A stretch of 49,328 bases of DNA from Armatimonadota bacterium (GCA_030649165.1 JAUSGG010000101.1:1-49328), one strand, 5' to 3'. Counted from the first letter of the stretch, positions 2,049-48,015 are shown. Notes: generated by a model from the sequence alone, not told the origin. Program-made: numbers and translations.

Positions 2049-3137
2049 TCAGTCTTCCGCCTTCCACACCAGCTTACCGGTCCTATCGATGTAGCTCGGC
2101 TCGCCGCCGATGTCCGGCCTGTACTTCCACACACGGGCGAGGCCATCTCGGAAGCTCTCGACGCGGTCGTATGAGAGTCTTAAAACCGCTTTCCCGCTAC
2201 TGTTGATGAAGCTGTAGCGGCGCTTATTCACTGACACTGTGTCATGGCCATCCGGGTCATCGAGCGTGATGATCTCCTGCCCCGGCCTGCTTGTGCTGAC
2301 CAGCGCAAGCCCGTCGGAAAAGCTCTCAGCGTGCTCGAACTGAGGCTCAATCACGGTCTTGCCCGTCTTGTCTATGTAACCCCAGCCCGAATCAATGGGA
2401 AAACGAACCGCCGCCAGCCCTTCGTGAAAGGGTTGAACAGAGGAGAAGCGAGGCTTGATCACGACCTTGCCTGTCGCGTCGACGTACCCTGACTTTGGGT
2501 ACTCTTCGTCTGTTGGAGCTGCCGCGAGCCCTTCGGAAAAATGCAGGCTTCTGAGCGCCCGACGATCGATTGCTGAACGGCCCTTGAGGATGACGTACCC
2601 GAAGCCCCTGCTGCCCTCGTATTCGATCACAGACTCAAGTGTTTTTCCCGTCCGGTTGATAAGCGCCAGCCTGCGACCGTCTCCCGGTCCCTTGATATAG
2701 ACGCGCGCAACGCCATTGTGGAAAACGCCGGGCGAGAAATAGCGCGCCGGTATAACGAGCTTGCCCTTCTTGTTTACGTAGCCCCACCTGTCGTCCCTCT
2801 CATTGGCTCCCTTGACGACACGGACGGCGGCCAATCTCTCAGAGAACTCCGCGGCGTCACTGAATTGAGGCTTGATCACAGATCTGCCGGCCTTGTCGAT
2901 GTAGCCGTATCCGGCGTCTTCCCCGAAGCCGATCTTGACCCGGCCGAGCCCTTCAGAGAAGTAGTTTGCCCCGTCGAAACGAGGACGAATGACGACCTTG
3001 CCGGCGCGGTTCATATAGCCCCACATCCCTCCTCGCACAATGGGAAACAAAGGGCGCTGGTCAGTCGCCGCGGGGCAGGACGCTGCGAAAAGCAAGGCGA
3101 TCGCTGCGCACCAGGCCGGAACTGCAATTCGTTTCAT
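2049..3137 (-). CDS. secreted WG-repeat protein, 8 units
   Basis: 362 residues with a signal peptide (cleavage after about residue 24, CPAA). The rest is a run of WG (KWG-type) repeats of about 38-45 residues. Each unit carries a core like WGYMNRAGKVVIRPRF followed by an 'F-x-E/D-G-L-A' turn, and about eight are recognisable. WG repeats form beta-rich domains of unknown function and are common in secreted bacterial proteins. The start overlaps the stop of the upstream WG gene by an ATGA, so the two are translationally coupled. No catalytic motif is visible; a binding or structural role at the cell surface is inference. Confidence 0.85.
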   Translation of the reverse strand: MKRIAVPAWCAAIALLFAASCPAATDQRPLFPIVRGGMWGYMNRAGKVVIRPRFDGANYFSEGLGRVKIGFGEDAGYGYIDKAGRSVIKPQFSDAAEFSERLAAVRVVKGANERDDRWGYVNKKGKLVIPARYFSPGVFHNGVARVYIKGPGDGRRLALINRTGKTLESVIEYEGSRGFGYVILKGRSAIDRRALRSLHFSEGLAAAPTDEEYPKSGYVDATGKVVIKPRFSSVQPFHEGLAAVRFPIDSGWGYIDKTGKTVIEPQFEHAESFSDGLALVSTSRPGQEIITLDDPDGHDTVSVNKRRYSFINSSGKAVLRLSYDRVESFRDGLARVWKYRPDIGGEPSYIDRTGKLVWKAED

Positions 3138-5185
3138 TGCTGCTCCTTTCCGAGTTTCCAGCCGACGCCCGCCACTCCTTGGGAAAAGTCGCCCGCGCCA
3201 TCGAACTGCTCCTCGATGACCATTTTGCCGGTCTTGTCGATATAACCGTACCTCGGGTTTACCGGGTCACCGGTGACGGCGAAAGCCAGTCCATCGTAAA
3301 ACCCGCCTGCAAGGCTGAACTTCGGCTGGACGACGATGTTCCCACTCGTGTCGATGAACCCCCACTGCCCGCCATTCTCAAGATTGCCATTAACGCTCAC
3401 CATAACCGGCGCCAACCCTTCTGAGAATGCGCCGGCAAGGTAGAACTTAGGCTGAACGACAAACTTGCCGGTTGTGTCGATGTAGCCCCACCTTTCATCC
3501 TGTTGGATGCTCTTGCCCACAGACACCGCCGCCAGGCCGCCTCGAAACGGTTCCGCTCTAAGGAACTGCGGAGCAATGACGACACTCCCCTTCTTATCGA
3601 AATAGCCGTAATTGGTGTGCTTCACCAGCACGCTGGCCAGTCCGTCGGAAAAACTCCCGCACAGCTCGTTCTTGGTTCGGAAGACCTCATTCCCGGATCG
3701 ATCGATGCAGTACGCCTCCATTGTGTCAAGGTCCGTGGCCCAGGCAAGCCCTTCCGAGAAGTCGTTTGCCATGTAAAGGTCCGCCGGTATCACCATCTTA
3801 CCAGTCCCATCGATGTAACCAGCTCCCTCGTGGGTCTCCACACGAGCAAGGCCCTCTGAGAAACCGGCTGCCCATCGATACCGCGGCTCAACCACTGTTC
3901 TGCCGGAACCATCGATGTACCCCCACTTGGCAGATTGCTCGTCGCCAAAACCCACGGGGATCAGGCCCTCAGTGTAGCGGCCCACCATATCGAATTGCGG
4001 CTGGATCACAAGCTTGCCTTGTTTATCTGCAAAACCCCACTTCCCAGTCTCCTCATCTCCGATCCTGACCGGAATGAGTCCGTTGGACATCACGCCCACA
4101 GCGTCATAACGCTTGTTGGTGACGAGCTTGCCCATTCTGTCGATGATGCCGTACGTCCCGCGCCTAGTGCTGGTGCGTGCAAACGCGGCGAGCCCCTCAG
4201 AGAAGTCAGATGCGCCGACCCACTGATTCGGTCCGACTACCAGGTTGCCAGCCTTGTCCATATAGCTCCACCGCTGCCCGATGGAGACTCTTGCCAAGCC
4301 GTTGCGGAACGGCCCCTCGGGGACCATTTCGCTGGTCGGCGCGCAGGTTATGACCTCTATTCCCTTCTTGTTGATGAACCCTCTGCCGCCATTGCTCCAT
4401 ACGAGCGCCAGACCTTCTGAGAAACCTTCTCCGATTGGCGTCACATTCTTGATCACGGTTTTCCCGGAGGTATCTATGCAGCGGTAACTGAAATTGTTGT
4501 TGCCAATGCGTTTGGCAACGAACGCCAGTCCGTCCAGGAATCCCGCGGCGTGATCGTACTGGGGTTTGATGGCTATTTTGCCCGCTCTATCGATATATCC
4601 CCACATCGGTTTAACCAGGTTGCCTGTTGCAACCGGCGCGAGCCCGCACGAGAAGTCACCGGCGTTGATATACTTCGGCTTGATCCTGATCTTGCCGGTC
4701 TTGTCGATGTAGCCCCACCTGTCGGGGTAGCGCTCAACACAGACGCGAGCGTAACCTGCGCGAAACGGGCCCGCTTGGTGATAGCGAGGCTTAATCACCA
4801 TATTGCCTGATTTGTTGATGAAACCCCACTTGTCTTGCTGCTTGCTTACGGCAGCCAGACCCTCGGAAAACCCTGCAGCCCGTTGGTATTGAGGTTTGAT
4901 GACGACCTTGCCCGCCTTGTCTATGTAGCCTCTAAGCTCGTTCCTACCACCCCAATCGGTTCCGGCGCTGTAGTCGGTGACCACTGCCAGTCCCTCGTGA
5001 AACGGCTCCGCTGCCGCGTAGGGTAGATCGAGGGCAATCTTTCCCTTGGCATCTATGTAGCCACACGTCTGGACACTCCCCTGGCTGCCGCGAACCGACG
5101 GCCCGGCTCTCTGTGTGTGACCCTGTGCGGCTGCGCTAAGCGGGAAGAAGACGGCGAGGCAGATTGCCACGAAGGCATATCTCAT
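3134..5185 (-). CDS. secreted WG-repeat protein, 17 units
   Basis: 683 residues: signal peptide (about residues 1-20, ending SAAAQ) followed by about 17 consecutive WG repeats with cores such as WGYIDKTGK, WGFINKSGN and YGYFDKKGS. Each core is followed by 'IKPQY' and 'FSEGLA' elements, at a period of about 38 residues. Some cores have lost the Trp (YRCIDTSGK, AYCIDRSGN), so the units are diverged rather than freshly duplicated. AGGAG lies 7 bases before the ATG. It is the first gene of a two-gene unit with the shorter WG protein. Family function is unknown; the protein should be exported and entirely repeat-built. Confidence 0.85.
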   Translation of the reverse strand: MRYAFVAICLAVFFPLSAAAQGHTQRAGPSVRGSQGSVQTCGYIDAKGKIALDLPYAAAEPFHEGLAVVTDYSAGTDWGGRNELRGYIDKAGKVVIKPQYQRAAGFSEGLAAVSKQQDKWGFINKSGNMVIKPRYHQAGPFRAGYARVCVERYPDRWGYIDKTGKIRIKPKYINAGDFSCGLAPVATGNLVKPMWGYIDRAGKIAIKPQYDHAAGFLDGLAFVAKRIGNNNFSYRCIDTSGKTVIKNVTPIGEGFSEGLALVWSNGGRGFINKKGIEVITCAPTSEMVPEGPFRNGLARVSIGQRWSYMDKAGNLVVGPNQWVGASDFSEGLAAFARTSTRRGTYGIIDRMGKLVTNKRYDAVGVMSNGLIPVRIGDEETGKWGFADKQGKLVIQPQFDMVGRYTEGLIPVGFGDEQSAKWGYIDGSGRTVVEPRYRWAAGFSEGLARVETHEGAGYIDGTGKMVIPADLYMANDFSEGLAWATDLDTMEAYCIDRSGNEVFRTKNELCGSFSDGLASVLVKHTNYGYFDKKGSVVIAPQFLRAEPFRGGLAAVSVGKSIQQDERWGYIDTTGKFVVQPKFYLAGAFSEGLAPVMVSVNGNLENGGQWGFIDTSGNIVVQPKFSLAGGFYDGLAFAVTGDPVNPRYGYIDKTGKMVIEEQFDGAGDFSQGVAGVGWKLGKEQQ

Positions 5186-23838: not shown

Positions 23839-24465
23839 ATGAAGTTGCTGCGTGTCGTCCTCGTCCTCATCATACTCGCTTCGTGCGGAGCCGGGAACGC
23901 GGTGGAGAGAATCACTAACGGCGGGTTCGAGTCCGGAACCGCCGGTTGGACCGCCGGCGCGTACGGATCATCGACGGTCGTCCCCTCTGGTACGTACGGA
24001 GTCACGGCCCATGAAGGCGGCTATTTCCTCGACGCAAGTCTCAGCGATTACGCGCGGTGGCCTAAGACGGCGCTCTGGCAGAGCACGACGGTCCCCCTTG
24101 TCAACACGTGGTACGAGATTACCGGATGGATATACCCCCACTTTTCCGGCGAGCTCGGCGCAAAACAAGCCGCCATAACCGTTGACTGGGGCGACGGCAC
24201 GGTTGAAAGGGTCGCCGCGAGCCTCGACAGCCTGTGGAACAACGTCGGCGCGGCCCACTACGTCCAGTTCAACTCCCCCAGCCCCATAACCGTTTACCTG
24301 GAGATATACGGCGGTCCGCTGGTGTCCGGCGACTTCGCGCTTTTCGATGACATCAGTCTACAGGAATACTCCAGCAGCGTGCCTGAACCGGGCAGCCTGT
24401 GCGCTTTTGCGAGCTTTCTGCTTGCCGTTGCGGCCGTCCGGCGCGGAATCGGAAGGAAGAAATGA
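23839..24465 (+). CDS. PEP-CTERM sorting-signal protein
   Basis: 208 residues from the ATG at 23839, which sits just downstream of the sigma-54-type promoter; the 14 codons upstream in frame would overlap that promoter. An N-terminal export signal (residues 1-21) contains LASC, so it could be cut by signal peptidase I or II. A jelly-roll carbohydrate-binding-like domain follows (NGGFESGTAGWTAG ... LFDDISLQEY). The C-terminus is a full PEP-CTERM tail: VPEPGSL, a hydrophobic helix, then RRGIGRKK. Exosortase/archaeosortase-type enzymes process this tail and hand the protein to the exterior, usually with exopolysaccharide. No exosortase gene lies in the window. The stop overlaps the next start (ATGA). 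Confidence 0.88.
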   Translation: MKLLRVVLVLIILASCGAGNAVERITNGGFESGTAGWTAGAYGSSTVVPSGTYGVTAHEGGYFLDASLSDYARWPKTALWQSTTVPLVNTWYEITGWIYPHFSGELGAKQAAITVDWGDGTVERVAASLDSLWNNVGAAHYVQFNSPSPITVYLEIYGGPLVSGDFALFDDISLQEYSSSVPEPGSLCAFASFLLAVAAVRRGIGRKK

Positions 24466-27400
24466 GAAAACTCGTCCTCCCGCTGAGCATCGTCCTTCTA
24501 TTCCTAGTGGCGTCGCCGCGGCCCGTCCGGTGCGTGACGGCGGGAGTCACCCGGCAGGAGGTTCTCATCATTGTGAACCAGCAGAGCCCCGCCTCGCGGC
24601 GCATCGGGGAATACTACCGGGTGGCGAGAGGCATCCCGACGTCGAACGTCTGCTTTATCAACTGCCCAACTACCGAGACGACCACTATAACGACCTACCT
24701 CCAGCAGATCGAGACGCCGATCAAGAGTTTCCTTACGAACAACCAGTTGGAGGACCAGATAAAGCTGATCGTCACCACCAAAGGCGTGCCGCCGCGGATG
24801 GCGGAGGTCGACCGGATGGCGTCGGTCGATTCCGCCCTTGCGCTGCTGTTCAACCAAAGCGCCTGTGGCCGGGCGCCTGTGGGAGAGGCCACCATGCCGT
24901 TCTTCGGCGCGGTCCCAAACCCGTACTACGGCTCGGGAGACGCTTTCGCAAACTTCAGGTCCGCGTCCGCCAACGTTGCTATAGAGGCTTTCCCCCAGAT
25001 TGCGGACCTGGCGCTTCTGCCGAACGGGAACGTAGTGGCTGTCGGCGACAAGGGAGTGATAGTTCGCGGTTCCGCCGGAACCTGGTCCGTCATCGACGAC
25101 CAGAGGAAACACTACGTCCAGGGGAATTTCGGTTCGGTGTGTTTTGCCAACTCCAACGAGGGCTGGGCGGCGACCGACGACGGAAAGGTCGTCAGGACCG
25201 GCAACGGCGGCCTCGACTGGACGCGAATTCGGGCTTCGTCGAACGACCGGCTGAACGACATCGCGGCGCCCACCAATTCCGAAATCTACGTCGTAGGTGA
25301 GACGGTCATCAGCTCCACCGAGACACGTCCGTTAATACTGCACTATGTGAGTTCCTGGGTTTCGGAGCCGACTGGTTTGACTTCAGGCGCTTTGTACTCC
25401 GTGTCGGCGCCCGACACCGGAAACGTGTGGGCGTGCGGCTCGGGCGGGACCATCCTCCGGCGAACTGGAGGCGTTTGGGAGCGTCAGACCAACGGCGTGC
25501 CGAATACCGTCTATCGGTCTATCACAATGCGGAACGTGGCCGGCAACTACCACGGCTGGGCGGCCGGCGACGGAGGGACCATCCTTCACACTATCAACGG
25601 TGGAGATACCTGGGCGCAGCAGCCCGGCGGCCTGACAGGCCGGCTCTCGCAGGTCTTCGCGCTCGACTCGCTGAATGCCTGGGTCACGCCCGATTGGCAG
25701 GATTCGCGACTGCTGAAGACGACCGACGGTGGCGGGAATTGGCTGAGCGTCCAAAACGACTACAATGGCAAGTTCGCGGTCGCGTTCAGCAGCAACACGG
25801 ATGGTTATGCGGTCGGGGCGGACGGCAACAGTGGGAAGTTCTCCGTCCTGCACACGAGCGACGGCGGCGTTACGTGGTCGCCGGTCTTTCGGGGTCCCGA
25901 CACGCTCTGGCGGATCAAATACCTCGTGTGCCGGCTCGACGCGTACTCGGAAGACCGCAACGGCGACGGATTACCTGACGATGTGAAGGCGCTGATCGAC
26001 CGTGCCGTTTCGCCGGAGCCGTCAGGCGCGTTCGTGCTCGACATCGATCCTGGTCGAGATGCCTCGCCCGGCAGCAAGCTCGGCAACGATCAGCTTCGCG
26101 ACGCGCGCGCGGCGCTTTCCTCCGCGGGGGCGACAACTGTCCTGGACGAGGATTTGGGCGCCGGTTCGACGTTCATGACGGGCGAATGGCTTCAACAGAG
26201 ATTCGGCGCCGCCGTTCCGGTTGGCGGATACTGCAGTTGGGGGAGCAATGACTACGGCTCTCGGTCCACCACCCAATGGGCGCGGCCCGCGCTGGAGTGG
26301 AAGCCTGGGGCCGTCGCTATGTGCTACGTCAGCACGGACGGCAGGACGCTTAACGAGTCTGACTTCTTTGTCTCTTCGAGCAATTCCCTCGTGCGAGAGG
26401 GCAACTGGACTGACATCGACGTGGTTCACGCGAACAACGTCTACGTGGGCTGGCGCGCTGAGCTGCGCGACACAGCGTCCGGCATGACGTATTCGGCGAT
26501 CGCCGCGGCCGGACACGTAAGCGTGCCCTTCGCCGGCTCGGTCACTTCAGGCTACCTGGAGATCACAGTTCCCGATCCCGATAGTCCCGGTTCCTTCATC
26601 CCGCTTCCCGGGGCGAGAGTGAATGCAAGCGTATCGCAGCCGATATCGGGTGGAAACAATTATCACCTGCTCGTGCCTCAATCGCTGATTGCCGATCTGC
26701 TGAACGAAGGCTGTAGTGGGGCTATCGGAAATGTCTACGAGCCGTATCTGGACGGGACCGGGTGTCCCGACAAGGCGTTTCCCAAGTACTACTCCGGCTT
26801 CACGTGGGCCGAAAGCGCGTACGCGGGGTTGAGGTATCTGGGATGGCAGGAGGTCGTCATCGGCGACCCGCTGATGGCCCCGAACGCGCCGACTGTGAAG
26901 ATCGCGTCGCCGAAGAGGGGAGGGGCCGTGTCGGGAACAATTTCGGTGACGGCCGCGGCGACGGATCCCCGTGGAGTCAACCGGGCGGAACTGCTGTTGG
27001 ACGGCGCCTCGCGGGGCGTGGACACATCTCCTCCGTACCAATGGACGATCAACACCACCGGCGTCACTGACGGCAGGCACGGGCTGGAGGTTGCCGCATA
27101 TCGTGATGGACCGTCCGGAGTTACATATCGGGGCTACGACTATACGGAGATACTCGTCAGTAACAACGCGCCGATAGTGAACTCGCCCGGTGATGCCCTG
27201 TCCTTGCAGGAGGGCGCGTCAGTGACGATAGCGTCCGGCATAATCACGGCCGATTCGGACGCGCTCGGAGGCCGGTCGTACGTCGAGCATCCCGTGCGAT
27301 TTGCGGCGCTGGGCCTCACACCTCCCGCGGGCATAAGCTTAAACGAAGGCTTTGCGGTCTCGGCGACGGGGTCGATGACGACGGTTGAGGGCGAGAGACG

Positions 27401-27791
27401 GCTCGGAGCGTCGCAAATGGCCATCGGGGAATGGGTGGGATGCCCGGCCCCGATCGGTTTCGCGGAATACCTCCTGGGCGGTAAGCACAGCTCGCCCAAT
27501 GTTCCCGCGCTTCCAGGCGCGCACGGCGTCTACAACATTGGGCTGCTGGCCAAGGTGATCGGCAGGGTTACGACCGTCGGTTCCGACTATTTCTACCTCG
27601 ACGACGGCTCGGCGCTGATCGATAATTCGGGCAACGCCGGGGTACGCGTGGAGTGCGGGACCCTCGTCAAACCATCAACCACTCACGCCGCCGTAACGGG
27701 CATCGCCGGTGTCGAGACCGTTAACGGCGGCCTCGCGCGAGTTATCCGGGTGCGGAAACAGGAAGACATCGTGCCGGTGGCAGGGTTCTGA
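24462..27791 (+). CDS. TIGR03790-family secreted protein with inserted beta-propeller and C-terminal Ig-like and OB-like domains
   Basis: 1109 residues from the ATG at 24462 (GGAAGGAAG upstream), with a signal peptide near 1-24. The TIGR03790 domain starts at about 30 (VLIIVNQQSPASRRIGEYY, RGIPTSNVCFINCP, VTTKGVPPRM). It is broken at about 175 by a YCF48/BNR-like propeller (to about 475; DGGTILHTINGGDTWAQQ, RLLKTTDGGGNWLSVQ). It resumes with YLVCRLDAYSEDRNGDGLPD and YCSWGSNDYGS and ends with LGWQEVVIGDPLMAPN near 790-805. A bacterial Ig-like domain follows (about 805-890) and the C-terminus holds an OB-like module (GRVTTVGSDYFYLDDGS). The family has no known function. It is translationally coupled to the PEP-CTERM gene. 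Confidence 0.82.
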   Translation: MRKLVLPLSIVLLFLVASPRPVRCVTAGVTRQEVLIIVNQQSPASRRIGEYYRVARGIPTSNVCFINCPTTETTTITTYLQQIETPIKSFLTNNQLEDQIKLIVTTKGVPPRMAEVDRMASVDSALALLFNQSACGRAPVGEATMPFFGAVPNPYYGSGDAFANFRSASANVAIEAFPQIADLALLPNGNVVAVGDKGVIVRGSAGTWSVIDDQRKHYVQGNFGSVCFANSNEGWAATDDGKVVRTGNGGLDWTRIRASSNDRLNDIAAPTNSEIYVVGETVISSTETRPLILHYVSSWVSEPTGLTSGALYSVSAPDTGNVWACGSGGTILRRTGGVWERQTNGVPNTVYRSITMRNVAGNYHGWAAGDGGTILHTINGGDTWAQQPGGLTGRLSQVFALDSLNAWVTPDWQDSRLLKTTDGGGNWLSVQNDYNGKFAVAFSSNTDGYAVGADGNSGKFSVLHTSDGGVTWSPVFRGPDTLWRIKYLVCRLDAYSEDRNGDGLPDDVKALIDRAVSPEPSGAFVLDIDPGRDASPGSKLGNDQLRDARAALSSAGATTVLDEDLGAGSTFMTGEWLQQRFGAAVPVGGYCSWGSNDYGSRSTTQWARPALEWKPGAVAMCYVSTDGRTLNESDFFVSSSNSLVREGNWTDIDVVHANNVYVGWRAELRDTASGMTYSAIAAAGHVSVPFAGSVTSGYLEITVPDPDSPGSFIPLPGARVNASVSQPISGGNNYHLLVPQSLIADLLNEGCSGAIGNVYEPYLDGTGCPDKAFPKYYSGFTWAESAYAGLRYLGWQEVVIGDPLMAPNAPTVKIASPKRGGAVSGTISVTAAATDPRGVNRAELLLDGASRGVDTSPPYQWTINTTGVTDGRHGLEVAAYRDGPSGVTYRGYDYTEILVSNNAPIVNSPGDALSLQEGASVTIASGIITADSDALGGRSYVEHPVRFAALGLTPPAGISLNEGFAVSATGSMTTVEGERRLGASQMAIGEWVGCPAPIGFAEYLLGGKHSSPNVPALPGAHGVYNIGLLAKVIGRVTTVGSDYFYLDDGSALIDNSGNAGVRVECGTLVKPSTTHAAVTGIAGVETVNGGLARVIRVRKQEDIVPVAGF

Positions 27792-38348: not shown

Positions 38349-39251
38349 CTACAGCCTCCGGCTCTCCCCCCACAACAGCCGGTTCATAGGTGGATATGTG
38401 TCCTCCGAGATCATCTCCCGCACCGAGCGGCCGTCGGTTGTGATTCGGCGGTAGACGGCGACCTGCATACCCGGCGCGCCGCTGTTGACCACCCGCCAGC
38501 GCAGACCGCGCGGATCGGAATCGCGTAGGCGGATCACTTCACCGGGAGGAGTCACTTGCCTGACCTCACGCTGCACCGCAATTCTGCGTCCAAGAGGCCG
38601 CTGAGACAGTAAGCGGCAGACCAGCCCATTCCCTTCCACCTCGGCCTCTATCTTGACCGGCCATTCGTAGGGGTTGCGGAAGCGCAGATCGATGTCCATT
38701 TGGGCAACGGCCGCGTCCTGGCCCGGCGGCGCGTAGCGGACCGGGAAACGGTGTTTGTGGCGTTCCTGTACTTCCATTCCGCCCAGAAGCGCGGCGTTAT
38801 AGAGCGTTGTGGACGCCTGGCAGACGCCGCCGCCCCAGCTTGGTATCAGTTCTCCGTCGTAGCTTACAGGAGCTTTCACGTATCCGCGGTCGGGAGACCA
38901 GGAACCTACGGCTCGGTTGAAAGAGAACTCGCCGCTGGGCGCTATGAGCTTCCCATCGATCGACCTGACCGCAAGACGCACGTTGTGGATTTGGGCGTCG
39001 GTGCGTCCGTCCAGGCCCGTCCGGTAGGCGGCCACTGTTTGCCATCGGGGAGGCAGTGTCGCCGCCCAGACGGCGAGGGCAAGGGCGATGGCGACGGAGG
39101 CGAGGGCGAGTCCGCGAGGTATGAGCGCTGAGCGCTGAGCGCTGAGTGACCGCCCCCTAACCCCCTCCTGAGAGGAGGGGGGATTTGGCGCTCCCTCTCC
39201 TTGTAGGAGAGGGTTGGGGTGAGGTTCAGGATCAGTCCCGTGGCGTCTCAT
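38349..39251 (-). CDS. VanW-family protein with repeat-encoded N-terminus
   Basis: 300 residues. The ATG at 39251 overlaps the upstream alpha-2-macroglobulin stop (ATGA). Residues about 9-43 are encoded by two REP-like palindromes and a 7-bp tandem repeat (for example HPNPLLQGEG). A TM helix or signal anchor follows (about 45-66). The VanW domain then begins: APSGEFSFNRAVGSWSPDRGY, GGGVCQASTTLYNAALLGGMEV and the Tyr/Arg beta region FPVRYAPPGQDAAVA. VanW is named from vancomycin-resistance clusters, but its role is unsettled and an extracytoplasmic cell-wall role is inferred. Starts nearer the TM helix would need non-ATG codons without ribosome sites. Last gene of a three-gene unit. Confidence 0.85.
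   Translation of the reverse strand: MRRHGTDPEPHPNPLLQGEGAPNPPSSQEGVRGRSLSAQRSALIPRGLALASVAIALALAVWAATLPPRWQTVAAYRTGLDGRTDAQIHNVRLAVRSIDGKLIAPSGEFSFNRAVGSWSPDRGYVKAPVSYDGELIPSWGGGVCQASTTLYNAALLGGMEVQERHKHRFPVRYAPPGQDAAVAQMDIDLRFRNPYEWPVKIEAEVEGNGLVCRLLSQRPLGRRIAVQREVRQVTPPGEVIRLRDSDPRGLRWRVVNSGAPGMQVAVYRRITTDGRSVREMISEDTYPPMNRLLWGESRRL
39123..39146 (+). repeat. 7-bp tandem repeat inside the VanW N-terminal codons
   Basis: GAGCGCT three times followed by GAG, in the minus-strand coding frame of the VanW gene. Confidence 0.85.
39153..39187 (+). repeat. second REP-like palindrome type
   Basis: CCCCCTAACCCCCTCCT-GAG-AGGAGGGGGG: a C-rich arm and a G-rich arm around a short centre. It is adjacent to, and different from, the element at 39193-39224. 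Confidence 0.7.
39193..39224 (+). repeat. REP-like palindrome, third copy
   Basis: CCCTCTCCT-TGT-AGGAGAGGG plus a TTGGGGTGAGG tail, a diverged copy of the elements at 9976 and 23480, here inside the first codons of the VanW gene. Confidence 0.75.
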
Positions 39252-42200
39252 CGTACCCTCACCTCATCCTCCTTGCCGATGGCGGTTATGGACGGGTCGT
39301 ACATCGCCTCGACAAGCGCCGGCAGGGCGTTGTACCGGCCCGGAATGCCCGCCCGGAACTCGTATTCGAGCAGGCTCTTGCCCCTCGGCAGCGTCTCGAG
39401 GTAGAAAGACACTCTTTCGTCGCGCACATCCTGGTCAACCCACCAATAGCTCCACTCCCACGGGTCCACTCTCCCCCGGTCGAACGCTTCGCATCCCGCC
39501 GGCAGGTAGTCCTCCACCAGAAGGTGATAGTACTGCCTGGGCGAACGGATCACAAGCCTGACGCGATATGTATCGCCGCTGCGGAGGTCGGCGCTTGGCG
39601 AATCCGCGGGCTGCAGACGGTTTCTCCTGTAGGATTCGTCCCATCGCGACACGAGCTTCCGGTATTCACGTGTAACGGTAATGCCGGAACCGCCGGCGAC
39701 CTTACGTTTTTCGGGTCGACGGACGTATTGCGTCGTCTCGATTGTGTAGTAAAGCGCGCCGCGGCCGCGCAGGTTGATGCGAAAATAGTGATATCCTGGG
39801 CGCAGTTCGTCATGGATGCGCGGGATCGTCTTTACACCTGGGACAGTCTTGGTCGGAGAAGGTGGAGTCTCCGAGCTTATCGGATGAATGACGAGTTCCT
39901 CTTCGGGCTGAAACAGCGATCTCCTGTCGAACCTAAACTCTCCGCTAAAGCGATTATTGTGCGAAATGGTGGCGACGAAATTCGGCTGCAGCTCCTTCGA
40001 GCGCGAGAGATAATCGGAGAGCGCATACAGAATCATCGCCGTGTCGCGCGTCGAGTACCAGTGGTTATACCGCCTGTTCCGGAGCAGCCAGCGGACGATC
40101 TTCGGAATGCGGCTGTCATTCGGTGTGATCCTCTGGACGGCCATCAGCGCCTGCGCGGTCGCCTGTGTCGGAATCTCGTCGTAGTAGCCATAGTAGTCGT
40201 GATACCGGCGTCCCCAATGGATCTCGCCGCCGGTCACGATAGCCTGGCTCCACAGTTCAGTAAGATAGTCTCGGGCAGCGGCCGTATCGCTGATATTGGC
40301 GAGAGTCATCGCCAACAGAGCGTTCTGCTCTGGCCTGACCTTCTTTGCGGTTAGAACGGAATGGATGTGGTTCCTCACCGTTTGCTTGCGCCCGCCGGTG
40401 GAAAGAACGTAGAGCGCGTAAATCCTCGCGCTCTGCGACTCCTCGATGCGCCGAGGCTTACGCTTCAACTGCCGCTCCAGTGATTCCAGCCCGCGCTCCA
40501 GCGCGTCCCGGTTCACGTGGAAGCCGGCTTCGCGCGCGGTCAGGAGTCCGAATACCACGTAGGCAGTCATCCACAGATCGTCCTGTCCGTATTCGCACCA
40601 GCCCCAACCGCCCGTGTCTTCGTGCTGGAAGTCATACAGCCGGTTAAGCCCTTTGCCGACCATATCCGGCAGCTTTCGCTTCAGATCGGGGTTCTCGACG
40701 CCAAAGGCCTTCCACGAGCGCCAGATCACCACGTCGGGCAGGAAGGAGCTCATCGTCTGCTCGGTGCAGCCATAAGGATACTGCGCGAGGTATTCCAGAC
40801 TTCCGAGCATACTCGACGCCAGCGAAGGCGCCAGCCTGATCCGTATCTGGCTCGCGCCCGCGACCGAGTCGGAACGTATGATCAAAGTCTCGTTTACCGG
40901 ACTCCCGAACGTCGAGCCGGACCTTGTCTCCACCAGCCTCTGCCCGTGCGGGCGGACCGGGATGGTCAGTTGCATTGCATCATTTGCGTCACGGGCTACG
41001 GCGTAGGCGGTGAAGGTCGCGGCGCCGGTTCCGGGCGCCGTGATGCGCCAATCGACACGCTCCACGCCTTCGCTGCCTACCGTGACCGTGTGCGTGGACT
41101 TACCGGAAACGGCGCCATCCGCGTAGATCGTCACCTCAACTCTCTGTGGCTTTGGCAGGTAGTTGTGCACTGCTGCCGAGACGACACTCTCGTCCTTCTG
41201 TACCAGGAACCTCGGCGTGGTCAACCGCACCAACAGTTTTTTGGAGCAAATGGTCTTGTTAGTTGTCTGGCCTACAACGGTGTCCGCCGTGCAGGCCCTC
41301 GCGGTGGCGCGCCAGGTGGTCAGGTTGTCCGGCATCTTGAACCGGACCCGCGCCTCGCCCTTCTTGTCCGTGACTACGTCGGCGCGCCAGAAGGCCGTGT
41401 CCACAAACTCCTTTCGAATTCTGCCCGTGAACCCTCCCTTGTCGGCGCTGTAATACACTTCCGGGAACGAATATCGCGTGTTCACGTTGTTCGGCTGGCG
41501 GCTATAGAACAAGTCGCGGATGGGCGTGGTGTTTTCCTCACGAATGGCGTAGATGGCTTCGTCAACAACGCCGAGCGACACTTCCGCCTGGACGGGTTTG
41601 CCGCGCGAGTTCACGGTCCTGAGCAGGTAAACAGCCTGCTCGCCGGGCTCGTATTTGCGTTTGTTCGGCGTGACCGTCAGCTTCAGCGACTGCTCGGCCA
41701 GCGATACCTTCGCCCCGTCTTCGGCCGAAACGAGCTTTTTGTCCTTCACGTAGCACACCGTAACATAGAAGTTCGGGCGGTATTCCGGCTTGATCGGTAT
41801 GTTGACAACGGTTGACCGCCGGTCCAGCTTGACGAGTTTGTGGTCGAACAGCCGGCGGCCCTCCACGGTGACGAGCGCCGCTACGCCGGACTGCGCGGAG
41901 TTTATCAGGACCTTGGCTGTGTCGCCCGGCTTGTAGACCTTCTTGTCCAGAACGACCTCAAGACTGGGGTATTTGTAACCGGCGAACTCCCGCGTTCCCG
42001 GGACCCAAAGCCACGCCGACGATTTCAAGAGCCGCCCGCGTCGATCGCGGCACGTTACCCGGACCATATACTGGCCTTCCTTACGCGGTGTGAAGGCGAA
42101 GATCGCGCGCCCCGCGGCATCGGTTGACGTCTTGGCGCTCGCCACCTGGCCGTAGTTCTCTTCTCCGTCTTCCCACGAGACAAGGCCGGCCATGATGTCC

Positions 42201-44044
42201 AGTTGAACTCCCGCCCGCGGCCCGCGGCCGTAGTCGGCCGCCCGGATTTTGAACCGCGCGCTGTTTCCGGGGTTGACGATGTATTCCACCGCATTGACGT
42301 CAACGCGGAAATCGCCCAGCGTCGCGATCACGCTAGCATCGCCCTCGGCCTCTCTCCGGCTCTGGTCTGTCACGAACGCGTGGATGGAAAACTCCTGGTC
42401 GGCCGGTGAGTAGTCGTCCGGCTCCTGTTTCCATCGGGCTTTGAACTCGACTTCCGCGGTTCCGTCCGGACCGGTCACCAGCGTGCCGCTCAGGATTTCC
42501 TCCCCGTAGCCGCCATAGTCGTCGTATTCGCCCTCGTATCCCCAATCGTAGCCGTCCTCACCCTCGTCCCAGGGGGCCCAGTAGTCCGACCGCGAGATCG
42601 AGTAGCGCACTTCCGCCCCGACCACCGGCGCGCCGAAGTAATACGTCGCGCGGATTTTCGCCTTCACCGTATCGCCTCTGACGTAGCGCTTCTTTGGGGT
42701 CTGGACGCTGACCGTAAACTCCGGCTTGCGATATTCGGCAACGGCGAACGACGCGCTCTGCTGCTCCTTCTCGAATGTACAGTTCAACTGATATTCTCCG
42801 GTCGCCGAGAATTGCGGCAGGCTGAAGTCGCCGTGGAATGAGCCGAACCGGCTGAGCGGCAGGGATTTCGCGTAGACTAGAGTGTCGCGGCGGTCCCGCG
42901 CTTCAACCCGGACCTGCCCGGCCATCGGAGTGTGATAGGCGTCCTTCGAGAACTTGCGCACGATTCCGCGGAACCGCACCTGATGACCGGGCCGGTACAC
43001 CGGCCGGTCCGTATAAGTGTAGATCGTCGCGCCTTCCGAACGTGAGGTATAACCTTCAGAGCCAAGAACGGCGACTGAATCGCCTTTGCGGGCCACGACG
43101 TATATGGTCTCATATTCCGGCTTCCCACTGGCTGCCATTCCGGCGCGCCAGATTCCGGTCGCGTCCGTTGTCCCTGAAGCAATCGTCTTGTCGTCGCGGA
43201 TGACCTTTACCTGTGTCCCCGGGACCGGCTGTCCGGTATCGGGTGTCACGGCGTAAGCCAGCATTTGGCTGCTGCTGTTCTTGCTGACCAGACTTATGTC
43301 GCTCACGGACAGCCAGGCGCCGCGGCGGATACCATCGGCCTCGGCGCTGATGATGTAGAGGCCGGGCGCGTGCGGTTCGAACTTTACTCTGCGATGATAG
43401 ATGCCTTCGCTGTCTCGCTTGTCAATCGCGACGGTGAGGGATTCGCTGGAGAGAATCGCGGGGGGATTGGCGCGTTTCTTGCCGGAGGGTGACGGGTTTT
43501 CCCTCAAGACGTCCCGAACCGACCCCGCTGTTCCGGAAATCAACTTGTCGATGTCAATCCGATGCAGCTCTACGCTCACGTGGTCACCCGGAGTGAATCC
43601 GTCGAGCGCTATCTCCGGTCGCTCCTTTGTCGTGAAGCTGCGTTGACTGGCATAGAGGTTCAAGTACGGTTGGCCGGGGGCCATTTCGAGATCGAGTTCC
43701 TCGATCTGACCTTCCGTAACTGTGACGTTGACGGGACGTACGGAATGAACGTCGGCATTTGCTTCAATGACATATTCGGCGACCGGCAAGTCCTCGAACT
43801 TGAACTCGCCGTTGGCGTCTGTTTCCTCGTGCCTGCTTTCCCAGTGGTCACCGTCGGTAGTCTCGACGCTCCGCAGGTAAATGCGAGCGTCGGCGATAGG
43901 CCGTCCGGTCTCGACCGCGTAGACCTTGCCGCGAATGTCGCCGGTTGGGGTCTCCTGCGCGACAACGAAGGCCAGAATGACGCCGCACCAGAAGACCGCG
44001 GCGGCGATTGCGAGCCATTGGCGGGATATGACGGAGCGCGGCAT
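39248..44044 (-). CDS. bacterial alpha-2-macroglobulin family protein
   Basis: 1598 residues. An N-terminal signal/anchor helix (about 10-29) is not a lipobox. A carboxypeptidase-regulatory-like beta domain follows (about 33-125; DIRGKVYAVETGRPIADARIYL). Macroglobulin domains come next (GATIYTYTDRPVYRPGHQVRF ... KRYVRGDTVKAKIRATYYFGAPVVGAEV). A bait-like loop is rich in Asp/Gly/Tyr near 505-520. The thioester motif CTEQ is at 1093-1096 within YPYGCTEQTMSSFLP, so the protease-trapping chemistry is kept. Bacterial A2Ms trap foreign proteases in the periplasm. Many are lipoproteins encoded beside penicillin-binding protein 1C, and neither holds here. Its gene follows the 500-residue membrane protein by 4 bases and overlaps vanW. 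Confidence 0.93.
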   Translation of the reverse strand: MPRSVISRQWLAIAAAVFWCGVILAFVVAQETPTGDIRGKVYAVETGRPIADARIYLRSVETTDGDHWESRHEETDANGEFKFEDLPVAEYVIEANADVHSVRPVNVTVTEGQIEELDLEMAPGQPYLNLYASQRSFTTKERPEIALDGFTPGDHVSVELHRIDIDKLISGTAGSVRDVLRENPSPSGKKRANPPAILSSESLTVAIDKRDSEGIYHRRVKFEPHAPGLYIISAEADGIRRGAWLSVSDISLVSKNSSSQMLAYAVTPDTGQPVPGTQVKVIRDDKTIASGTTDATGIWRAGMAASGKPEYETIYVVARKGDSVAVLGSEGYTSRSEGATIYTYTDRPVYRPGHQVRFRGIVRKFSKDAYHTPMAGQVRVEARDRRDTLVYAKSLPLSRFGSFHGDFSLPQFSATGEYQLNCTFEKEQQSASFAVAEYRKPEFTVSVQTPKKRYVRGDTVKAKIRATYYFGAPVVGAEVRYSISRSDYWAPWDEGEDGYDWGYEGEYDDYGGYGEEILSGTLVTGPDGTAEVEFKARWKQEPDDYSPADQEFSIHAFVTDQSRREAEGDASVIATLGDFRVDVNAVEYIVNPGNSARFKIRAADYGRGPRAGVQLDIMAGLVSWEDGEENYGQVASAKTSTDAAGRAIFAFTPRKEGQYMVRVTCRDRRGRLLKSSAWLWVPGTREFAGYKYPSLEVVLDKKVYKPGDTAKVLINSAQSGVAALVTVEGRRLFDHKLVKLDRRSTVVNIPIKPEYRPNFYVTVCYVKDKKLVSAEDGAKVSLAEQSLKLTVTPNKRKYEPGEQAVYLLRTVNSRGKPVQAEVSLGVVDEAIYAIREENTTPIRDLFYSRQPNNVNTRYSFPEVYYSADKGGFTGRIRKEFVDTAFWRADVVTDKKGEARVRFKMPDNLTTWRATARACTADTVVGQTTNKTICSKKLLVRLTTPRFLVQKDESVVSAAVHNYLPKPQRVEVTIYADGAVSGKSTHTVTVGSEGVERVDWRITAPGTGAATFTAYAVARDANDAMQLTIPVRPHGQRLVETRSGSTFGSPVNETLIIRSDSVAGASQIRIRLAPSLASSMLGSLEYLAQYPYGCTEQTMSSFLPDVVIWRSWKAFGVENPDLKRKLPDMVGKGLNRLYDFQHEDTGGWGWCEYGQDDLWMTAYVVFGLLTAREAGFHVNRDALERGLESLERQLKRKPRRIEESQSARIYALYVLSTGGRKQTVRNHIHSVLTAKKVRPEQNALLAMTLANISDTAAARDYLTELWSQAIVTGGEIHWGRRYHDYYGYYDEIPTQATAQALMAVQRITPNDSRIPKIVRWLLRNRRYNHWYSTRDTAMILYALSDYLSRSKELQPNFVATISHNNRFSGEFRFDRRSLFQPEEELVIHPISSETPPSPTKTVPGVKTIPRIHDELRPGYHYFRINLRGRGALYYTIETTQYVRRPEKRKVAGGSGITVTREYRKLVSRWDESYRRNRLQPADSPSADLRSGDTYRVRLVIRSPRQYYHLLVEDYLPAGCEAFDRGRVDPWEWSYWWVDQDVRDERVSFYLETLPRGKSLLEYEFRAGIPGRYNALPALVEAMYDPSITAIGKEDEVRVR

Positions 44045-45786: not shown

Positions 45787-48015
45787 ATGAAGAAAAGCCC
45801 CGCGACGAGAACCGCCCATGCGGCGCCCGACTCCCTACGCCAGCAAGCCGTTGAATGGCCGTTTTTCGCGCTGGCGGTCCTGGCCCCGCTCGCCTTCTGC
45901 ACGGGCGCATCCGCCCCGACCTCCGTGAAACTGCCCGTTATATGTCTTCTGGCCGTCTTCATGCTGATCGGGCTTTACGCGCGAGCATTTAGCGCCGACT
46001 GGCGGCCGGCCAGAAGCGCGCTTGTTTACCCGGCGTTTGCGATGTTCACCTGGAAGCTGATCGCGAGTGTTTACGGCGGTCACTTCTACTCGTCGGCGGA
46101 GCCGCTGCTTTATAGCGCGTTGTACCTCATCGTATTCGCCGCGGCGGCAGGTCTCCCGCGGAAAGAGGAACAAATCGTCAGAACGCTCCTGGTCGCCGCG
46201 CTTGCGGCGGCGCCGATAGCGATCATCGGCATATTCGAGCATTACGGCCTGCGTCTTTCCCTGCGCCAGGTTGTCGGACTCGGCAGGGTCCACTCTACAA
46301 TGGGCAATCCCACGTTTCTCGCGGCGTATTTTGCGCTGTTTCTGCCCGTGCAACTCTGCCTGTTCTTCACGATGGAGTCGCGGCGAATGCGGTGGGCGCT
46401 CGGCGCTTCGGCCGGCGTCACCTATCTGTGCGTCATCTGGACGTACACGAGGGGTATCTGGCTGGGCATGATGCTGTCGGCCGCGATGCTGGCGGTGCTG
46501 TTCCTGGCCACGGAGGCAAAGGCGCGGATACTCACGAGACGCAGGGACCTCGCGGCGCTGATCGCTGTTCTCGCGGCGATTACGGCGTTTGCCTGGGCGA
46601 CGCGGTCGGCTCCCGTTGACGACTCCGGAAAGGTTTCTGGAGACCTGAGTTTCGCCGGGCGAAAATCGGACCTGATCCGCAAGTCCCTGATGGGCGCTGG
46701 AATACAAATGTTCCTGGATCGTCCTGTTCTCGGATGGGGATTGGGCGGATACCGGGCCTATCAGATGAACTACATTTCGGGCAAGCCTGTCTTCGGTCAT
46801 TACGAAATGGGCGAGGACCACGCGCATAACGACCTGATAGAAACGGCTGCCGACCAGGGCGTTGTGGGGGTGGGGATTTACCTGTGGCTGATTGCCGCTA
46901 TCTGTCTCACTGCCGCGGCGGCGCTGAGGCGGGCAAGTCACAGTCCCGCGAGGTTATTGGCGTCGCTTGGCGTGATTGGTGGACTCGTGGCTTTTTTCCC
47001 CGATCTGATGGTCAACGTGAGCATTCACGAGGCGCACGTCGGGGTGTTTGTCTGGATGCTGTTGGGAGCGCTGGCGGCGCTTTCCGCTTCAACTGATAAG
47101 TCGGCAGCGGAAAAGCCGGTCGCCAGGCCGCCGCTGCAAAAGGCGGGGATTGCCGCCGCCGCGGTCGTGGTGTCGGCGTGGCTGATGTGGGGGGGCGCCG
47201 CGAGCTTTCTGGCCGACGTTCACGCGATGCGCGCCGGACAGGCGCGGGACAAGCGCGATTGGAATGCGTGGACGCGGGAGAACCTGATCGCCCTGAGGAT
47301 TTACCCTTACGCGACCCGATCATTGTACTGGCTCGGTCTGTCCTATCTGGAAGACGGCTACGCGGAGGACGCTCTGGCGGCGATGAAGGATTACCAGCGA
47401 AAGTACCCGCACGCGATGAGGATAGACTACGAGCTGGGCAGGGCGCACTTTCGGACGGGGGACTATAAACAGGCGGCGAGTTCGTATCAGACGGCGGCGC
47501 GGATGGATCCTGAGAACTTCCTCGCCTGGCGTGGACTCGCGGCGGCGTATTATATGACGGGCGACAGCGAAGCCTCGCAGCACGCGATCGCAAGAGCTGT
47601 CCTGTTGGGCAGCCAGGCTCGAATCGCTGGAAACTATGAAACGCCGCCTCTGCGCCCTCAGTCGGGGTTGGGTCACTATCTGATCGCTGACGATCTGATC
47701 CGGGCGGGACTGTACGCGGACGCGATCCCGGAGTTGAAGCGGGCCGCCCAGGAGTCCCCGGAACAGGCTGTGTATCTAACGGCGCTCGGCGCGGCATATT
47801 GGAAGACCGGGAAGCTGTCGGAGGCTGAGACCGCGCTCAGGCGCGCGACTGCGGCCGATCCGCGATCGACTGACGCTGTGGGCTATCTCGCTTCAGTGTA
47901 TCTCGAACAGGGCCGCAAGTCCGAGGCCAGGCGCGAATTGCTGAAGGCGATGTCGCTGACGCGCGACGAAACCAGGCTCGCCGGTTTCCGACAAATGCTG
48001 CGATTGACGCAATAA
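45787..48015 (+). CDS. O-antigen ligase/polymerase (Wzy_C/WaaL-like) with C-terminal TPRs
   Basis: 742 residues. The first 460 hold about 12 TM helices with the family region YTRGIWLGMMLSAAMLA. The ligase signature follows: FLDRPVLGWGLGGYRAYQMNY, then DHAHNDLIETAADQGVVGVG, with the H in HND near residue 344 on the large periplasmic loop. Residues about 510-740 contain TPR units (YELGRAHFRTGDYKQAASSYQ, LGAAYWKTGKLSEAETALRRA). Such proteins join lipid-linked glycans or polymerise repeat units at the outer face of the inner membrane. No glycosyltransferases are adjacent, so the acceptor cannot be named. Confidence 0.88.
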   Translation: MKKSPATRTAHAAPDSLRQQAVEWPFFALAVLAPLAFCTGASAPTSVKLPVICLLAVFMLIGLYARAFSADWRPARSALVYPAFAMFTWKLIASVYGGHFYSSAEPLLYSALYLIVFAAAAGLPRKEEQIVRTLLVAALAAAPIAIIGIFEHYGLRLSLRQVVGLGRVHSTMGNPTFLAAYFALFLPVQLCLFFTMESRRMRWALGASAGVTYLCVIWTYTRGIWLGMMLSAAMLAVLFLATEAKARILTRRRDLAALIAVLAAITAFAWATRSAPVDDSGKVSGDLSFAGRKSDLIRKSLMGAGIQMFLDRPVLGWGLGGYRAYQMNYISGKPVFGHYEMGEDHAHNDLIETAADQGVVGVGIYLWLIAAICLTAAAALRRASHSPARLLASLGVIGGLVAFFPDLMVNVSIHEAHVGVFVWMLLGALAALSASTDKSAAEKPVARPPLQKAGIAAAAVVVSAWLMWGGAASFLADVHAMRAGQARDKRDWNAWTRENLIALRIYPYATRSLYWLGLSYLEDGYAEDALAAMKDYQRKYPHAMRIDYELGRAHFRTGDYKQAASSYQTAARMDPENFLAWRGLAAAYYMTGDSEASQHAIARAVLLGSQARIAGNYETPPLRPQSGLGHYLIADDLIRAGLYADAIPELKRAAQESPEQAVYLTALGAAYWKTGKLSEAETALRRATAADPRSTDAVGYLASVYLEQGRKSEARRELLKAMSLTRDETRLAGFRQMLRLTQ

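Follow-up and report, generated by a model that had tools for sequence, protein, structure and literature searches.

The question raised by this locus is what a complete beta-propeller does inside a TIGR03790 domain. In the window, by which we mean the whole 49,328-nucleotide stretch of Armatimonadota DNA that was analysed, an earlier note made from the sequence alone had placed a gene at 24462-27791, and both its ATG and its stop are found there. The NCBIfam profile TIGR03790 matches the encoded protein in three stretches that together span the whole profile, with 164.3 bits and an E value of 4.9e-48, where the curated cut-off is 67 bits. When the protein was aligned with its relatives, all the family motifs (TKG, RLD, SWGSND, EP, and GDPL) were present, and block 2 contains both the RLDAYSEDRNGDG and the WGSNDYGS that the note had read in it. 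Since relatives have these blocks contiguous, sequence comparison indicates that the separate blocks are one domain. The protein is probably exported. Pfam has no family matching the TIGR03790 domain, profile searches of the PDB found no solved relative, and our literature search found no paper naming TIGR03790.

Table 1. Features of the TIGR03790-propeller gene and of its upstream partner in the window.
Feature	Coordinates	Strand	Basis or details
Upstream partner gene, 208 aa	23839..24465	+	Signal-peptide-like start, weakly CBM_4_9-like N-terminal part, PEP-CTERM tail VPEPGSLCAFASFLLAVAAVRRGIGRKK
Coupling junction GGAAGGAAGAA-ATGA	24449..24465	+	Partner TGA stop overlaps TIGR03790 ATG by 4 nt
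TIGR03790-propeller gene, 1109 aa	24462..27791	+	ATG start at 24462, stop at 27791
Signal-peptide-like N-terminus MRKLVLPLSIVLLFLVASPRPVRC	24462..24536	+	Read from sequence
TIGR03790 block 1 (profile 1-137)	24552..24974	+	NCBIfam profile (match at 24555-24965) and alignment
Insert 1 (311 aa, residues 172-482 from ATG 24462), a complete beta-propeller of the Ycf48/BNR type with seven blades	24975..25907	+	Pfam, AF2, Foldseek
TIGR03790 block 2 (profile 139-259); contains RLD and SWGSND	25908..26360	+	Profile (match at 25920-26360) and alignment
Insert 2, ~105 aa, beta-rich, between profile 259 and 264	26361..26675	+	Profile gap and alignment
TIGR03790 block 3 (profile 264-316); contains EP and GDPL	26676..26897	+	Profile (match at 26688-26846) and alignment
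Big_7 Ig-like domain	26889..27092	+	Pfam E 5.6e-17
C-terminal OB-like module (probable)	27174..27788	+	Tail common to TIGR03790-Ig paralogues and a free-standing propeller protein

The gap between the first two pieces of the profile match is filled by a propeller, as the earlier note had proposed. PSII_BNR/YCF48 is matched there (Pfam E 4e-10), and phmmer relates insert 1 to solved Ycf48 chains (E 2e-11). Block 1 had been said to end near residue 175, with an insert of about 300 residues, which agrees well with the ~311 residues that we find. In an AF2 model of residues 23-814, built from three input sequences and with a mean pLDDT of 52, much of insert 1 reaches a pLDDT of 70-92 and the TIGR03790 part is mostly below 50, too low to locate the propeller relative to its host. 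The 28 strands modelled for the insert fall into seven sets of four, after which comes YLVCRLD, a strand of block 2. When it was compared with the PDB using Foldseek, the top 12 matches were all Ycf48, over ~310 columns and with target TM scores of 0.65-0.70; 5ojr and 2xbg, at the head of the list, score 0.68-0.70. In a closed propeller, both ends lie near each other, and such a module can therefore sit in a loop without pulling its host domain apart. We rejected insert 1 as a Ycf48 orthologue because it is an embedded domain in a non-photosynthetic setting.

Insert 2, which does not figure in the earlier note, splits the TIGR03790 domain a second time; in the alignment, it is absent from plain TIGR03790 members and common to the clade of the window protein. 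Further downstream, the Ig-like module of the note is a clear Big_7 domain, and the OB-like fold that it had read in the C-terminal tail is probable. The latter is made plausible by a match to RMI2, an OB-fold family, in a relative with the same tail (E 5e-4), but AF2 models the Ig-OB tail with a pLDDT of 33. Free-standing multi-blade Ycf48-type proteins are encoded at L054 (634-3096) and L056 (1-2301), and the L054 protein ends as the window protein does, in this OB-like tail.

We then asked how widespread the propeller is. We surveyed 291 Armatimonadota genomes; 172 have a TIGR03790 match, and among the matches listed nearly all are uninterrupted. When up to three candidates per genome were scored, 3 of the 291 genomes proved to carry the propeller, in at least six copies that are all in the same loop. 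This survey of the phylum leads us to reject the segment as a normal part of TIGR03790, and the insertion put forward in the earlier note therefore stands. The copies are in the source genome of the window (the window itself, two on contig C193, and one on C194), in G020 (locus L115), and in G003, which belongs to the same order as the source genome. Full-length open frames are kept at 24-45% propeller identity. C193 (L113, 1-5550) carries tandem pairs of PEP-CTERM and propeller-TIGR03790 genes, the propellers of which are 88% identical, and one of its copies stops inside the propeller, with the next PEP-CTERM gene following immediately. In G003 (L029, 1596-3656 on contig C111), the propeller-TIGR03790 gene is broken ~73 residues into the insert, beside an IS3-like transposase gene. 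A scan of genome contigs with the window protein found no relative. In a second scan, with the propeller alignment, a Ycf48-like protein standing by itself and the broken copy of G003 were the only matches. No match to TIGR03790 or the propeller was found in viral contigs, and the plasmids scanned gave YCF48-related proteins only.

When the propeller was removed and a tree built from the host domain alone, the window protein grouped weakly with the G020 copy, and the C193 and C194 copies fell among propeller-less relatives. A single clade of propeller carriers was rejected (AU p 1e-4). Since the propeller tree is saturated, one insertion followed by losses and several insertions are both possible histories. 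Another TIGR03790 subfamily (L025 and L090-L100), spread over many families of the phylum, has at about the same place ~140-200 extra residues that match TPR. Because propeller and TPR modules are found at about the same place, the block 1/block 2 loop is a repeated insertion site that accepts modules. Could the insertion be functionally neutral, a closed module tolerated in a permissive loop and persisting by drift? Its patchy distribution would fit, as would carriers that do not form one clade and the two damaged copies, one broken beside the IS3-like element and one ending inside the propeller. However, the same loop has been used recurrently, the frames are open over their full length at 24-45% propeller identity, and the seven-bladed geometry is retained in the model, so we consider neutrality very unlikely.

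The earlier note made no mention of the gene immediately upstream, which overlaps the TIGR03790 start codon (Table 1). In a pattern scan, the tail of its product fits the PEP-CTERM pattern, with a VPEP motif, a hydrophobic stretch, and a basic tail at the C-terminus; its Pfam PEP-CTERM score of 14.4 bits falls short of the 20.7 cut-off, and its CBM_4_9 match is weak (Pfam E 0.002). A PEP-CTERM gene lies directly upstream of five of the six propeller copies (the window, both C193 copies, C194, and G003) and of three of the five closest propeller-less relatives (L023, L024, and L028). No upstream PEP-CTERM neighbour was found for the G020 propeller copy (L115) or the propeller-less L030 and L031. 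All eight pairs have a 4-nt NTGA overlap (ATGA, TTGA, or GTGA), and in all eight the purine-rich Arg/Lys codons of the basic tail sit at the position expected for a ribosome-binding site. Judging by this placement, these codons are likely to act as the Shine-Dalgarno-like site of the downstream gene. The partner bodies are 39-46% alike between C193 and C194, and those of the window and G003 have little in common beyond the tail. The 4-base overlap of the genes suggests that the TIGR03790 and PEP-CTERM proteins work as a pair, which we infer to be co-translated.

The association extends beyond the propeller carriers. In 271 kb of TIGR03790 loci, the whole window included, 23 of 25 strict PEP-CTERM open reading frames have a TIGR03790 gene as a same-strand neighbour. 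TIGR03790-Ig-OB paralogues have two adjoining PEP-CTERM genes in most genomes examined, and a conserved three-gene neighbourhood of a TIGR03790-Ig-OB gene with two tandem PEP-CTERM genes was seen at L112, L117-L124, L037, L039, L043, and L044. In the short flanks examined, short plain and TPR-type members are mostly without PEP-CTERM neighbours. The source genome encodes two exosortases (TIGR02602) over the cut-off and has at least 19 PEP-CTERM matches. Across the 291 genomes, 157 of the 172 that have TIGR03790 also have an exosortase, as do 84 of the 119 that lack it (odds ratio 4.4, Fisher p 6e-6, genomes being counted regardless of relatedness).

Our preferred reading, to which we give roughly even odds (about 0.5), is that the two genes encode a coupled exported pair in exosortase/PEP-CTERM surface sorting, the propeller serving to dock the partner. 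The propeller would have been inserted whole in the block 1/block 2 loop, leaving the host domain undisturbed, and the TIGR03790 protein would be made by translational coupling with the upstream PEP-CTERM protein. The pair would be dedicated to exosortase/PEP-CTERM surface sorting, with the TIGR03790 domain as its conserved core, and the propeller would most likely be a docking module for the ectodomain or the extended C-terminal tail of the partner. Export, physical partnership, and docking are what we infer from this arrangement. There is a precedent for docking in Ycf48, a seven-bladed propeller around which the C-terminal tail of D1 wraps (PMC10403576), and by analogy insert 1 might hold its partner as Ycf48 holds the D1 tail. 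Only two of the six positions of the Ycf48 Arg patch can be aligned with insert 1, in a blade-shifted alignment, and neither is Arg. Since these two positions are not conserved, the binding mode of Ycf48 has probably not been carried over. Further findings temper the docking reading, among them the below-cut-off Pfam score of the partner tail in the window and the relatedness of the genomes behind the exosortase association. L115 has the propeller without a PEP-CTERM neighbour, and the propeller-less L023, L024, and L028 are also coupled; coupling alone therefore does not explain the propeller.

The propeller might instead be an anchor at the cell surface that binds glycan or exopolysaccharide and makes no contact with the PEP-CTERM partner. 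Sugar-active proteins are known among BNR/Asp-box propellers, one of the weaker Foldseek matches of insert 1 is GH74, the partner has its own weak CBM_4_9 match, and PEP-CTERM systems have been linked to exopolysaccharide (PMC1569441). Nevertheless, the nearest solved relative by both sequence and fold is Ycf48, which binds protein, and we regard a glycan anchor as unlikely.

The earlier note had suggested that the insertion separates the parts of one active centre, over which the propeller might act as a lid or gate. Insert 1 is indeed near the conserved RLD motif in sequence, and the window protein keeps all the family motifs. However, TIGR03790 is a family without an established catalytic centre, known activity, or solved fold. 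In the model, insert 1 would enter ~4 residues before a predicted beta-strand with RLD at its far end, and a parallel alpha/beta fold would place the propeller opposite the motif loops. Moreover, the C193 and C194 copies keep the propeller and have lost SWGSND and TKG. The lid or split-centre idea is thus slightly disfavoured by these points, and as an explanation of the propeller we hold it to be quite improbable. We favour recognition over catalysis because about the same loop is occupied by propeller and TPR, repeat modules that are unrelated to each other and that each commonly bind protein.

What the TIGR03790 core itself might be was addressed by comparing its profile with 32 Armatimonadota C25 peptidases. 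The two align in order over their whole length, with a P of about 0.02 that is not significant by itself; in two sets of 120 shuffled controls, 2 and 0 scored as high. The alignment pairs RLDG with GRLP, Y.SWGS with Y.GHG, and GDP with GDP. The catalytic His position of C25 is Trp in TIGR03790, which thus does not show the His-Cys dyad, and Pfam C25 has no match in the window protein or 14 relatives. A degenerate C25-like fold is therefore a weak lead. A broader reading would make TIGR03790 proteins cargo-dedicated factors of the exosortase pathway, with a degenerate C25-like (PorU/gingipain-type) fold lacking the dyad, in which propeller or TPR modules in one loop select the PEP-CTERM cargo made from the same NTGA-overlap message. 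We think this distinctly unlikely.

The coupled PEP-CTERM protein of the eight pairs is a concrete candidate partner for TIGR03790, a family without assigned function, and it makes the locus more interesting than the insertion by itself would. In addition, since the loop takes a propeller in one lineage but TPR in a different one, it may mark where the TIGR03790 family recognises something. With both clues, two adjacent genes open the role of this exosortase-linked family to direct study.

Elsewhere in the window, the minus strand encodes a 683-aa protein that WG_beta_rep matches in 11 stretches (3134-5185) and a bacterial alpha-2-macroglobulin of 1598 aa (39248-44044). An O-antigen-ligase-like (Wzy_C) protein with a TPR array at its C-terminus is encoded on the plus strand (45787-48015).

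A propeller within TIGR03790 was not found described in the literature searched. Compared with NCBIfam TIGR03790, the window protein is alike in its whole-profile 164-bit match, in the major motifs, and in the exosortase and PEP-CTERM genes alongside, but it adds the propeller, the ~105-aa beta-rich insert, and the Ig and OB-like tail, where typical listed members are uninterrupted. With Ycf48/HCF136 (PSII_BNR, PF14870), insert 1 shares a seven-bladed propeller and the best match by sequence and fold; unlike Ycf48, it is embedded in another domain, in a non-photosynthetic setting, and lacks Arg at the two alignable patch positions. TPR-insert members of TIGR03790 (e.g., L025 and L090-L100) resemble the window protein in that a module of foreign repeats is inserted at roughly this loop, but the module is TPR, the taxonomic families are others, and no PEP-CTERM gene was found beside this type in short flanks. 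The likeness to Peptidase_C25 (gingipain-type, PF01364) is a weak collinear profile alignment, with the difference of Trp at the catalytic His position. Finally, the locus shares with the PEP-CTERM/exosortase system the PEP-CTERM tail of the partner and the exosortases in the genome. Since most PEP-CTERM genes have been described as single-gene operons (Haft 2006, PMC1569441), the coupling of one to a TIGR03790 gene that we see here is unusual.
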